DNA from: Neorhizobium vignae
GTDB lineage: Bacteria; Pseudomonadota; Alphaproteobacteria; Rhizobiales; Rhizobiaceae
Assembly: GCF_000732195.1 (NCBI RefSeq)
Contig: NZ_JNNU01000007.1
Coordinates: 1-64,000, forward strand
DNA length: 64,000 nucleotides
Direction of reading: 5' to 3'
Below, in pieces: positions 1,223-6,000 of this stretch. The notes beneath the pieces are model-generated. The model was not told where the DNA came from, searched no databases, and was given only the letters and a program-made list of their open reading frames with translations. Within the stretch, counting starts at the first letter, position 1, and the number at the start of each line of letters is the position of its first letter. The translations under genes and the position numbers were made by a program.

Positions 1223-2728
1223 ATGGCGATTGCAACTCGCAAAAGTAAATCCGTAGAAAATGTCGCTGATGTTCCAATTGATATCCCGAACGACGAATTC
1301 GTAAGCCTCGAAAAGCGCCGAACGCAAGAACTTGTATTCGCAATGGTCGCTCCCATCGGATCCGGGGCATCGACCGTAGCTGATATAATTAAATCCCGGA
1401 TAGAAGAAAATTTTGGATATGAAACTAATGTCATCAAGATTAGCTCGTTAATAAACGATCGCGCCGAGAGCTTTGGTGAGGAAAAAGTCGAAGATAACGA
1501 CCCTGAACGCGTCGAGCGCCTTCAAAGCCTTGGAAACAAGCTTAGGGGCCGCCATTCAAACGATGTGCTTGCGATTTTGAGTATCGACAAAATAAATAGT
1601 TCGAGGAAGGACACGGCGAACGGTGAAGATAGGCGATTTTGTACGATAATTGACTCGCTAAAAAATCCAGAGGAAGTGGCCGTTCTGCGTAAGGTTTATG
1701 GAGATTTGTTTTGGCTAGTTGGCGTATTTTCGCCCGAGGAGAAGCGAATTTCGCGCCTAGAGAGCAATATTTCAAACTCTACATATCTGACAAAAATAAA
1801 GGACGCCGACTACGACGAAGGGCTGGACTTCGGGCAGTCTGTTCGGAAGACGATGAACTACGCTGATGTATTTTTTCGAAATGATGGTGATAATACAGAT
1901 GGAATAGGAAGATCGGTAGACCGTCTATTAAATCTAGTATTTGGAATTAGTGTTCAGACGCCTACTCGTGATGAGTATGCAATGCAGGCAGCTTCTGGGG
2001 TTTCTCTGAATTCAGCATGCCTTTCGAGACAAGTTGGTGCGGTTATTGTTTCGAAAGCGGGAGAGATAATTGGGCAAGGCGCAAACGATGTTCCGAAATA
2101 CGGCGGGGGAACTTATAACGTAGACGATGGATCAGGAGATAACCGCTGCTATAAATGGAAAGCCTGCCAGTGTTGGAATGACCATCATAAGGAGCGATTG
2201 CTGGATCAGATTGGGGCAAAGGTCGGTAATGTAATTAGCCGCGAGGATTTGCGGACTGGACTTCGAAAGACCGATGTAAAGAACCTGATTGAATTTTCGC
2301 GTGCCGTACATGCGGAAATGGAGGCGATTATTTCAGTCGCTCGCCAAGGAAAAAACGGAATTGTCGGCGCGAAATTATTTACCACAACCTTTCCCTGTCA
2401 CAGTTGCGCTCGCCATATTGTAGCGAGCGGAATCGAGACGGTTGTCTATATCGAACCGTATCCGAAAAGTTTGGCATTGACCCTTCACTCTGATGCTATA
2501 ACTACCAACCCAAGCGAAGCTGGAAAGGTTGCCTTCCTTCAATATGAGGGTGTATCGCCTTCTAGTTTTTCTCGCGTATTTGGAGCCAAGCTTGAGCGTA
2601 AAGAATCGGGTAAGGTAAAAAATGGTACACCAAAACAAGCGAAACCTTTGGCATCACCGCCACTCGATTCGCTAGTAAGTCGTGAGCAGCTTGTGTTGGC
2701 TCCGGTCTTGGAGAAGGAGGGGATGTAG
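1223..2728 (+). CDS. avcD: AvcD-type anti-phage dCTP/dCMP deaminase
   Basis: Protein of 501 residues with the two-domain architecture of AvcD defence deaminases. The N-terminal P-loop kinase-like domain (about 35-245) has APIGSGAST at 43-51; the usual Walker lysine is absent, as I recall for this family. It also contains IIDSLKNPEE near 142. The C-terminal cytidine/deoxycytidylate deaminase domain (about 250-460) has the zinc motif HAE at 363-365 and PCHSC at 391-395. An additional Cys/His-rich patch lies at 309-322. Family knowledge: these enzymes deaminate dCTP/dCMP during phage infection and are restrained by an upstream RNA. A ribosome-binding site AGGTAGG lies 7 bases before the ATG. Composition is far more A+T-rich than the neighbours, suggesting horizontal transfer. 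The stop overlaps the next gene. Confidence 0.88.
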   Translation: MAIATRKSKSVENVADVPIDIPNDEFVSLEKRRTQELVFAMVAPIGSGASTVADIIKSRIEENFGYETNVIKISSLINDRAESFGEEKVEDNDPERVERLQSLGNKLRGRHSNDVLAILSIDKINSSRKDTANGEDRRFCTIIDSLKNPEEVAVLRKVYGDLFWLVGVFSPEEKRISRLESNISNSTYLTKIKDADYDEGLDFGQSVRKTMNYADVFFRNDGDNTDGIGRSVDRLLNLVFGISVQTPTRDEYAMQAASGVSLNSACLSRQVGAVIVSKAGEIIGQGANDVPKYGGGTYNVDDGSGDNRCYKWKACQCWNDHHKERLLDQIGAKVGNVISREDLRTGLRKTDVKNLIEFSRAVHAEMEAIISVARQGKNGIVGAKLFTTTFPCHSCARHIVASGIETVVYIEPYPKSLALTLHSDAITTNPSEAGKVAFLQYEGVSPSSFSRVFGAKLERKESGKVKNGTPKQAKPLASPPLDSLVSREQLVLAPVLEKEGM

Positions 2729-2904
2729 TGGCTAAAACCGAAAAACAGCTAAATTTCCTGTTGCCGATCAATAATGCTCGTATTCAAAGGGCAGAATTGA
2801 AAGTATCGAAAGGAGCGGCTGTACCTTACTCCGCGAATTCCGAAAAGCGCTACGTTCAGATTAAAGAGTCTCTTAAAAGTAAGGGATTGATAAAGTCGCG
2901 ATAA
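2728..2904 (+). CDS. Small basic protein translationally coupled to avcD
   Basis: 58 codons from a GTG that shares one base with the avcD stop (TAGTG). AAGGAGGGG lies directly upstream at an ideal distance, which makes translation credible. The product begins MAKTEKQLNFLLPINNARIQ, is rich in Lys/Arg and has no Cys, membrane segment or signal peptide. Composition matches avcD, so it arrived with it. I do not recognise the family. By position it could be an accessory or inhibitor of the deaminase, but nothing in the sequence shows which. Confidence 0.65.
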   Translation: MAKTEKQLNFLLPINNARIQRAELKVSKGAAVPYSANSEKRYVQIKESLKSKGLIKSR

Positions 2905-2948
2905 GCGTCTTCAAATTTGCTTAAATCTTATCGGCGGTGGGACCGTCG

Positions 2949-3011
2949 CTACTGTTGCATGTAGTAGTCAATAACGTCGTTTCCGAACAGGTGCAGCATA
3001 TCGACGAGCGG
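2949..3011 (-). pseudogene. Possible C-terminal gene remnant at the insert boundary
   Basis: Reading leftward, codons give PLVDMLHLFGNDV then IDYYMQQ and a TAG stop at 2949. A TAA stop at 3012-3014 closes the frame upstream, and before that comes another short in-frame piece. Codon choice and residue pattern look like the tail of a real protein, but it is only 20 residues long and I cannot assign it. It may be debris left when the A+T-rich insert entered. Confidence 0.25.
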
Positions 3012-3077
3012 TTAGACCGAGGGCGCCTCTCCCGCGATATCCTGCACTCATAGAGGCAGGAGCGCCGCCACCTGCGC

Positions 3078-6000
3078 CTACCGCCCCGGCCGCCCGGTTT
3101 TCCCCTTCGTCCGGCTTTTCCGTTTCTGCTCCCCGCCATCCTCATAACTCCCCGCGCCAATCTTGCCGCGCACGAGAGGGCGGGGGTCGTCGGTGGATCC
3201 TCGGGTCGGGTCCGCGGATGACGACGGAGAGGTTGAGGATGATGGCGCCGGCTTCGGTGGAATCTTGCCGATGACCGGCTTTTCGGTGCGGCCGACGGTC
3301 ATTTCGTCGAGGTCGTTCTTGCGGAACAGCGATGGCTTGACGGGGTCTATGTCGCGGCCCATGTCGGAAAGGTCCGGCTTACGGAAGAGCGGCGTCGCGG
3401 TGTCGGTGCCCGGGCCCATGTCGTCGAGGCCGGGTTTGGCGAAGAGGGAGGTCGAGGGTGTGGCTTCCCCCTCATCCGCCCTGCGGGCACCTTCTCCCCG
3501 CTGGGTAGAAGGAGACTCGCGGCGGGCTTTGGCTCCGCCTTTGCCGTTTCCACCCTTGCCGCCACCGCCTTCGATGGCGCGGGCCTCGTCGCGGGCGATC
3601 GGGTCGTCCATGACGGCGAGTTCGGCGGCCTTGAGGCGCTTGATTTCGTCGCGCAGGCGGGCGGCCTTTTCGAAGTCGAGGTCGGCGGCGGCGTCGCGCA
3701 TCGATTTTTCGAGCGCGTTGAGATGGGCCTGCAGATTGTTGCCGACCAGGTGGCCGCCATCCGCAAAACCCTTGCCGGAGACGCCGGAAATGTCGGCGCG
3801 GACGTGGTCGCGCTCGTAGACCGAGTCGAGGATGTCGGAGATCCTGGCCTTCACCGATTCCGGCGTGATGCCGTTGGCGGTGTTGTATTCCATCTGCTTT
3901 TCGCGGCGGCGGGCGGTTTCGTCCATGGCGCGCTGCATCGAGCCGGTGATCTTGTCGGCATAGAGGATGACCTTGCCGTCGACGTTTCTCGCCGCACGCC
4001 CGATGGTCTGGATCAGCGACGTCTCCGAGCGCAAAAAGCCTTCCTTGTCGGCGTCGAGGATGGCGACGAAGGCGCATTCGGGAATGTCGAGGCCTTCGCG
4101 CAGAAGGTTGATGCCGACCAGCACGTCGAAGGCGCCCAGCCTGAGGTCGCGGATGATCTCGATGCGCTCCAGCGTGTCGATGTCCGAGTGCATGTAGCGC
4201 ACGCGCACGCCCTGTTCGTGCAGGTATTCGGTGAGGTCCTCGGCCATGCGCTTGGTGAGCACGGTGCAGAGCGTGCGGTACCCCTTGGCGGCGGTCTCGC
4301 GGATTTCGCCGAGCACGTCGTCGACCTGGGAGCGGGCGGAACGGACTTCCACCGGCGGGTCGATCAGGCCGGTCGGGCGGATCACCTGTTCGGCGAAGAC
4401 GCCGCCGGACTGTTCCATCTCCCAGTTGCCGGGGGTGGCCGAGACGGCGACGGTGAGGGGGCGCATCGCATCCCATTCCTCGAAGCGCAGCGGCCGGTTG
4501 TCCATGCAGGAGGGCAGGCGGAAACCGTATTCGGCGAGCGTCGCTTTTCGTCGGAAGTCGCCCCGGTACATGCCGCCGATCTGGCTGACCGAGACATGGC
4601 TTTCGTCGATGAAGAGGAGCGCGTTGTCGGGGATGTATTCGAACAGGGTCGGCGGCGGCTCGCCGGGATTGCGGCCGGTCAGGTAACGCGAATAGTTCTC
4701 GATGCCGGCGCAGGAGCCGGTCGCCTCCAGCATCTCGATATCGTAGCGGGTGCGCTGCTCCAGCCGCTGGGCTTCGAGCAGGCGGCCGCCCTTTTCGAGC
4801 TCGGCGAGCCGCAGCTTCAGCTCTTCCTTGATCGCCTTGATGGCGCCGTTCAGCGTCGGGCGCGGGGTGACGTAATGCGAGTTGGCGTAGATTTTTACCG
4901 ATTTCAGGTCGCCGACCTTGTGGCCGGTCAGCGGATCGAATTCGGTGATCGCATCGATCTCGTCGCCGAACATCGAGATGCGCCAGGCGGCATCCTCAAG
5001 GTGGGCCGGGAAGATCTCGATCGTGTCGCCGCGGACGCGAAACGAGCCGCGCACGAAATTCAGGTCCTGGCGCTTGTATTGCTGGGCCACCAAGTCTGCC
5101 AACAATTGACGTTGATCCAATCGGTCGCCGACCGACATCTGGAAGGTCATCGCCGTATAGGTCTCGACCGAGCCGATACCGTAGATGCAGGAGACCGAGG
5201 CGACGATGATGCAGTCGTCGCGCTCCAAGAGCGAGCGGGTGGCGGAGTGGCGCATCCGGTCGATCTGCTCGTTGATCGAGGATTCCTTCTCGATGAACGT
5301 GTCGGAGCGCGGCACATAGGCTTCCGGCTGGTAATAGTCGTAATAGGAGACGAAATATTCGACCGCGTTGTCCGGGAAGAAGTTCTTGAACTCGGAATAG
5401 AGCTGCGCCGCCAGCGTCTTGTTGGGGGCGAGGATCACGGCCGGGCGCTGCGTCGCCTCGATCACCTTGGCCATGGTGAAGGTTTTGCCGGAGCCGGTAA
5501 CGCCGAGCAGGACCTGGGAACGCTCGCCGGAATTGATGCCCTCGACGAGGTCGCGGATGGCGGTCGGCTGGTCGCCGGCGGGCTCGTAGTCGGACGCCAT
5601 GCGGATGGTCACGCCGCCCTCGGACTTTTCCGGCCGGGCCGGGCGGTGCGGCGTCCACAGCTTGCCGTCCTTGAACAGCGGATTGCCGCTCTCGATCAGC
5701 GCCGACAGGGCTTCGACCGTTGCGGTGACCGCGCCGGCGGCGAGGTTCTCGGCATCCTCCAGCGACGTATCCATGCCGGCGACCGGGTTGAGGCCGGCGC
5801 GGGCGCGCGTCTTGGGATCCGACGAGGCGCCGATCGACACCCCGCGGGCGGTCTTCGAGGCAGTGGTGTTCTTGGCCGTGGTCGGGGCCGTCTTGGCGGC
5901 CTTGATGGCTTCCTCGCGCGCGGCGATCTCTATTCTCTTGCGGTGCTTGCCGGCCTTCGAAGCGATCTCGCGCTGCGTCTCGACGCCGGAGGCCTCCGCC

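Follow-up and report, generated by a model that had tools for sequence, protein, structure and literature searches.

The question raised by this locus is whether the anti-phage deaminase AvcD can have a protein partner. AvcID, described as a type III toxin-antitoxin system, pairs AvcD with AvcI, a noncoding RNA encoded upstream of avcD (PMC10511110, PMC9455884). The window (the whole 64,000-nucleotide stretch of Neorhizobium vignae DNA that we analysed) encodes the same enzyme, whereas its candidate partner is a protein gene downstream of avcD. We located avcD at positions 1223 to 2728 of the forward strand. The 501-aa product, an anti-phage dCTP/dCMP deaminase, matches NF041025 over its full length with 469.2 bits (curated cut-off 400), the PADLOC dCTPase model with E 1.1e-163 and the Pfam family dCMP_cyt_deam_1. 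The zinc-site residues H363, A364 and E365 (HAE) and P391, C392, H393 and C395 (PCHxC) are invariant in an alignment of seven. The avcD of the window is a true anti-phage dCTP deaminase gene.

The small gene occupies positions 2728 to 2904 of the forward strand and has 58 codons. Its GTG start (2728-2730) shares one G with the TAG stop of avcD (2726-2728), the junction reading GAGAAGGAGGGGATGTAGTGGCT, and a Shine-Dalgarno-like AAGGAGG (forward strand, 2714 to 2720) lies 7 nt 5' of the GTG. The 58-aa product, MAKTEKQLNFLLPINNARIQRAELKVSKGAAVPYSANSEKRYVQIKESLKSKGLIKSR, has a pI of 10.4 and has no match at E ≤ 1 in Pfam, PADLOC, NCBIfam or PHROGs. An earlier note on this DNA had reported the shared base, the strong ribosome-binding site and a small basic product of no recognised family, all of which our analysis bears out. 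It had also proposed that the gene could be an undescribed component of the AvcD system, a proposal that gains support from the recurrent pairing of such genes with avcD described below.

We assessed whether the small open reading frame (ORF) is a gene by comparing it with the nearest relative found, at locus L017 of Rhizobium rhizogenes GBBC3284. AvcD is 83% identical between the window and this locus and the small protein is 52% identical. When the small genes are compared by frame, frame 0 reaches a score of 135, against 13 and 12 for the remaining frames. Over 57 codons, pN is 0.336 and pS is 0.865, giving a pN/pS of 0.39 (bootstrap 0.25-0.57) that is not an estimate of omega because synonymous sites are saturated; a ratio ≥ 1 appeared in 0 of 2000 bootstrap draws. 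The other alignable small-ORF pairs have dN/dS values of 0.11-0.62 where computable, with none taken from saturated or identical pairs and a value of 0 for one near-identical pair. Blastn of the window against L017 detected no significant similarity in the 1 kb 5' of avcD or across the 177 nt 3' of the small-gene stop, and the conserved unit near the pair is therefore avcD plus the small gene. Similarity returns at window positions 3082-3196, which in L017 lie 1.2 kb past the small-gene stop. These positions are covered by the 3' end of a gene that we take to be uvrB, and the same gene neighbours the avcD pair in both. Together, these comparisons indicate that the small ORF is a real gene under purifying, protein-level selection. 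According to the earlier note, absence of the ORF beside other avcD genes together with an unselected reading frame would have spoken against the gene; we found the frame to be selected and, as shown next, comparable ORFs to be common beside avcD.

We gathered avcD loci from the best 80 of at least 516 genome relatives, 40 viral contigs and 11 plasmid loci, and added four same-genus relatives and the window. Dropping five loci with a short or weak avcD left 131, of which 129 had 300 nt or more of downstream sequence; removal of redundancy reduced these to 119. In 104 of the 119 loci, an ORF of 40-200 aa starts between -60 and +100 of the avcD stop. The tBLASTn search beside other avcD genes that the earlier note had suggested yielded almost nothing: with the 58-aa protein alone, the only match among the loci then collected was L017 (E 7e-15). 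As the sole query, this protein matched nothing in plasmids, phages or viral contigs. The wider set is therefore visible only through position and motif, which together reveal many ORFs.

A profile of the small family, built from 63 member ORFs drawn from the same loci that it then scored, had a match downstream of avcD at E ≤ 1 in 71 of the 119 loci and a match upstream at E ≤ 10, with weak scores, in nine more. A partner type of about 180 aa was assigned in five loci (L003 by hand) and a small ORF of a WPxWK type in another five. By these profile rules, 29 loci are without an assigned partner; among them, look-alikes can be seen by eye upstream of avcD in L009, L011, L012, L114, L133 and L137 and downstream in L033, L072, L075, L082 and L083. 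Judging from record titles, the hosts of the small ORFs include Alpha-, Beta- and Gammaproteobacteria, Desulfobacterales, a Nitrospirota MAG and Bacteroidota, and those of the upstream type also include a Simkania MAG and an Acidobacteriia MAG. In a redundant set of 69 downstream ORFs (three of the about 180-aa type, and one, L018, without the Q of the motif described below), the ORF overlaps the avcD stop in 44 cases, begins 0-30 nt past it in 22 and lies farther away in 3; the overlaps may be overstated because the first possible start codon was used. Searching profile A3 in 385 genomes of the class gave one strong match (E 2.9e-22), directly after avcD in G400. This match proves nothing alone because its sequence, L140, is a row of A3, which makes the linkage test partly circular. 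No other strong copy was detected in the 385 genomes, in a search where each listed genome contributed no more than 16 scored candidates. Three further matches were partial and lay inside long frames, and G000 itself was unmatched.

The sole nearly invariant column in an alignment of 44 small ORFs is a Q. In the 63-member set, it is followed by L-x-[L/F/M]-x-[F/L], the commonest letters being L (50) at position 2, L (41), F (18) and M (3) at position 4, and F (35) and L (24) at position 6. Both sets had been picked by a looser motif already limiting positions 1, 2, 4 and 6, and L008 and L054 are doubtful picks among the 63. The published clamp-binding consensus is Q-phi-x-[L/M][F/L] or Q-phi-x-[L/M]-x-[F/L] (PMC11139829, PMC13254535). 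We preferred this consensus as the basis of our counts because the looser motif was derived after seeing the sequences, and we applied the published definition unchanged, with phi as L, I, V or A, to the first 60 aa of the downstream ORF. The strict consensus occurs in 36 of the 104 non-redundant loci with a candidate downstream ORF, compared with 2.3 ± 1.5 expected from residue shuffles and with 1 of 294 ends of other long ORFs from the same loci (164 with a candidate ORF). Allowing F at position 4, a relaxation made after the data were seen, gives 53 of 104 loci (shuffles 2.9 ± 1.7, controls 2/294), and the looser data-derived motif gives 65 of 104 (expected 8.1, control 9/294).

Some copies coincide with described clamp binders, namely QLSLPL of Hda (L026), QLELDF, which is contained in the phage-display peptide LQLELDF (L101, L125 and L165), and QLDLF, described as the strongest pentapeptide (L004, L091 and L142) (PMC11139829). 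Judged by its letters and counts, the N-terminal motif of the small ORFs is of the type that binds the bacterial sliding clamp (DnaN), and it is enriched far above chance. The window copy, KQLNFLLPI, is a near-match: QLNFLL (residues 7-12, forward strand, 2746 to 2763) has F at position 4, as do 18 of the 63 family members, and misses the strict consensus. The genome encodes DnaN, and its own Hda-like protein, which scores below the TIGR03420 cut-off, has QLPLQF near the N-terminus. The earlier note had rightly drawn attention to the small gene beside avcD; the clamp-type motif and the upstream ORFs discussed below had escaped it. We rejected the idea that the motif moves into AvcD when the partner lacks it, as a clamp motif lies inside AvcD in 3 of 66 such loci (one being the L021 run-in) versus 1 of 53. 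Zymomonas L190 has no motif in its tail either.

A further 38 loci were fetched after the motif had been recognised (17 from the class, 14 from the phylum and 7 distant plasmid loci). Two end before the avcD stop (L153 and L174) and three are duplicates by eye (L138, L162 and L164), which left 33. Four of these have the strict motif, against an expectation of about 0.7 from the shuffle rate: L139 with QIPMLL, L140 with QLSLKL, L142 with QLDLF in an ORF of the about 180-aa type, and L165 with QLELDF. The motif is less frequent here than among the loci collected first, and many AvcD proteins of the later set are more distant and have other downstream ORFs. The seven distant plasmid loci have no strict motif in the first 60 aa. 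L163, one of the later loci, has a family-type ORF upstream of avcD. In L189, from a Rhodococcus plasmid, an 86-aa ORF (3211-3471) follows a distant AvcD and ends in LQTQLPLLGTLSDH; its clamp-type motif, QLPLL, is at the C-terminus and not at the N-terminus, and it was noticed afterwards and left out of the count.

Conservation of the small protein is bipartite. Identity to L017 is 11/14 over residues 2-15, 3/23 over residues 16-38 (an unconserved linker, forward strand, 2773 to 2841) and 16/20 over residues 39-58 (forward strand, 2842 to 2901), a segment that holds most of a predicted helix. AlphaFold2 modelled the window protein on 44 members with a mean pLDDT of 74 and a pTM of 0.34. The model has a single helix at residues 37-51, with a pLDDT of 93 for residues 41-50 and 88 for residues 51-58. 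Residues 1-36 are without secondary structure, at block pLDDT values of 73, 66, 57 and 70 and none below 50, and the modelled N-terminus is thus not clearly disordered.

The small ORFs may form one family, or several subfamilies with a common motif. When members were held out in five folds of 40% clusters, 58 of 63 ranked first among the about 149 ORFs of their own locus, a result that is partly circular because the family set was selected by the looser motif. The fair test is the one with the motif masked: 29 of 63 held-out members came top in the locus to which they belong, where chance would give about 0.4, 11 of 63 reached E ≤ 0.05, and the window protein was unrecovered. The C-terminal half is therefore related across part of the set. 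At E ≤ 10, the whole family model matched 11 of 296 upstream-adjacent ORFs (two of them from the near-identical L103 and L104) and 10 of 17,383 others. At E ≤ 1, it matched 74 ORFs downstream of avcD, 6 upstream, 4 in unclassed loci and 1 elsewhere, having been trained on 63 of those ORFs.

The slot of AvcI is itself filled by an ORF of 50-70 codons in E. coli, Klebsiella, Photobacterium, Vibrio coralliilyticus, Pseudomonas, Teredinibacter and Marinobacter loci; the gammaproteobacterial loci L008 and L010 have no comparable upstream ORF. The true frame was top-scoring in all 10 pairs of upstream ORFs compared, including L011/L161 (149 versus 38 and 59), L093/L096 (90 versus 20 and 21) and L114/L120 (154 versus 63 and 75), and conservation in these three pairs is lowest at the third codon position. 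A model of the C-terminal part only ranked the upstream ORF first in 10 of 16 loci, at weak E values of 0.08 to 64 (L007, L011, L012, L044, L053, L093, L094, L096, L103 and L120), and did not rank it first in L009, L088, L110, L114, L133 and L137. The upstream ORFs of L007, L009, L093, L096 and L103 are without the clamp motif. From these comparisons, the AvcI slot looks coding in these lineages, and we make no claim that AvcI is a protein. Given the frame-specific conservation in the ten pairs, a conserved protein partner of AvcD would be reason to reconsider whether the AvcI locus is translated. The original AvcI paper reportedly argued against a role of translation. AvcI has been described as having a minimum functional length of about 171 nt and a transcript of slightly less than 300 nt (PMC10511110, PMC9455884). 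Searches for an upstream RNA in the window gave no sign of one: the region has no significant blastn similarity to L017, Rfam gave no match near a gathering score in the window (Rfam may have no AvcI family), and promoter and terminator scans upstream of avcD were at chance level.

We lean, with slightly better than even confidence, towards the small gene encoding a two-ended adaptor subunit of the AvcD defence, with a clamp-binding N-terminus and an AvcD-docking C-terminus. Its motif suggests that the N-terminal KQLNFLLPI would dock on the host sliding clamp, a free linker would join this motif to the C-terminal part, and the conserved basic C-terminal helix would dock on AvcD, as the pairing and the second conserved end suggest. 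Translational coupling would cause the small protein to be made together with AvcD. Such an adaptor would tie the deaminase to the replication machinery, and AvcD could be controlled by, or delivered to, active clamps. Regulation of AvcD is suggested by the similar ORFs that occupy the slot of its inhibitor; the small protein would restrain AvcD at host replisomes, and disturbance by a phage would lead to dCTP/dCMP destruction. Restraint at host replisomes fits the known logic of AvcD best and is the most likely form of the mechanism, with recruitment to forks nearly as likely.

Hda is described as having an arrangement of this kind, in which the motif occupies a loose tail and a docking or folded part follows; its clamp-binding QLSLPL is at a disordered N-terminus (PMC11139829, PMC3836487). 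The small protein resembles this clamp-bound DnaA regulator (Hda/HdaA) in having a short clamp-type hexapeptide at the N-terminus ahead of the working part, whereas it has only 58 aa and no Pfam match and the Hda-like protein of the genome has about 250 aa. With other sliding-clamp ligands (Pol II, Pol IV, UmuC, RecB and transposases) it has in common a short Q-L-x-L-(x)-F/L-type motif; unlike them, the window copy has F at position 4, and the membership of the small protein among these ligands is putative and known from sequence. It speaks against the adaptor reading that QLNFLL of the window qualifies by family resemblance only and not by the strict consensus. The modelled N-terminus without clear disorder, the weak similarity once the motif is masked, the upstream ORFs that lack the motif and its lower frequency in the later loci count against this reading as well.

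Other explanations of the small protein account for part of these observations. It could be a plain type II-like antitoxin of AvcD, the counterpart of AvcI, with a motif that contacts AvcD and no involvement of the clamp; we consider this unlikely, while giving it real weight. Size, charge and gene coupling fit such an antitoxin, AvcI is reported to inhibit AvcD (PMC10511110), several loci without a downstream ORF have a frame-conserved ORF in the AvcI position, and the C-terminal-only model puts the upstream ORF first in 10 of 16 loci, if at weak E values (0.08 to 64). As in type II toxin-antitoxin systems, a gene for a small basic protein is coupled to the gene of a toxic enzyme (by a one-base overlap and a Shine-Dalgarno-like sequence), whereas here the toxin gene comes first, the small protein has no known antitoxin domain and neutralisation would be hypothetical. 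A contact with AvcD would, moreover, not be expected to mirror the clamp consensus as closely as QLSLPL, QLELDF and QLDLF do, or to turn up again in the partners of about 180 aa. AvcD is reportedly activated by rifampicin and not by spectinomycin, which is ill-suited to a labile protein antitoxin (PMC10511110).

We consider it improbable that the motif is a strand or an amphipathic peptide that completes the AvcD fold, which would make the small protein an accessory or assembly subunit that is neither clamp-related nor regulatory. Its alternating hydrophobic residues could extend an AvcD sheet by a strand, and the matches of the family model cluster beside avcD (74 downstream, 6 upstream and 1 elsewhere at E ≤ 1, 63 being training members). 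However, the Q and the spacing match clamp ligands, and 29 of 119 AvcD loci are without an assigned partner, although several of these have look-alike ORFs. That the ORF arose by chance, or is a read-through artefact without function, is hardly credible: it is short, starts with GTG and belongs to no database family, but purifying selection, frame-specific conservation and the recurrence of both position and motif contradict this explanation.

The literature that we searched, which did not include the founding papers Hsueh 2022 and Tal 2022, mentions no protein partner or clamp motif for AvcD in the parts seen. The AvcD defence has so far been described as an RNA-held enzyme that transcription shut-off activates (PMC10511110), and a conserved clamp-tagged protein partner would add a missing component. 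If the adaptor reading is true, the AvcD system would be linked to DNA replication, where its substrate is used. A tentative generalisation, which we think has some chance of being right and a greater chance of being wrong, is that nucleotide-depleting defence of the AvcD type is generally two-protein and replisome-linked: a clamp tag would couple the deaminase to DnaN, the state of the fork or seizure of the clamp by a phage would gate dCTP destruction, and the AvcI RNA locus of gammaproteobacteria would be, or would overlap, the same kind of coding gene.

Other ORF types were observed downstream of avcD. The second partner type, mostly of about 170-200 aa, lies at or overlaps the avcD stop in L003, L004, L013, L014, L112, L142, L144, L149, L167 and L169. 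Its unnamed alpha/beta domain is preceded by QLDLF or QLSLF in some loci and by looser motifs elsewhere. In the model of the L004 protein, residues 1-45, which hold QLDLF, have a pLDDT < 50, and the remainder has an alpha/beta structure that matched no PDB entry confidently. Pfam gave no match for the L013 and L014 proteins; the L013 protein also had none in NCBIfam, and its PHROG matches were weak, with none better than E 0.11. We left this type unnamed because the best Foldseek match had an E of 1.6e-3 and a TM of 0.33; an initial idea that it is DUF488 found no support. The partner ORF of L003 has 470 aa, and its later part resembles what we take to be a TIR domain; the annotation of L195 also places a TIR protein after avcD. 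Small ORFs of a third type (about 55-80 aa, with a W-P-x-W-K-like motif) were seen in L010, L121, L127, L128, L131, L141, L143 and L145, and the L121 member has a weak match to PHROG_38465 (E 0.0013).

In L021 and L041, the avcD frame seems to be shifted near its 3' end and enters the frame of the small gene, which retains its own start. We rejected a natural fusion of avcD and the small gene in these loci; the intervening stretch looks out of frame, and by eye these are frameshifts.

The similarity of the window to seven same-genus genomes (L177-L183) stops at about 888-918, which on this comparison is the left boundary of the segment with which avcD and the small gene arrived. At window positions 2933-3026 and 3082-3196, at 2552-2645 of L005 and 1.2 kb past the small-gene stop in L017, we observed a remnant of the 3' end of a gene, presumably monooxygenase-like, beside the presumed uvrB. 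In G049, the gene of this remnant is whole, with a diverged and shortened avcD adjoining it. The avcD pair of L017 lies near the same uvrB end, and the site thus seems to hold avcD repeatedly.
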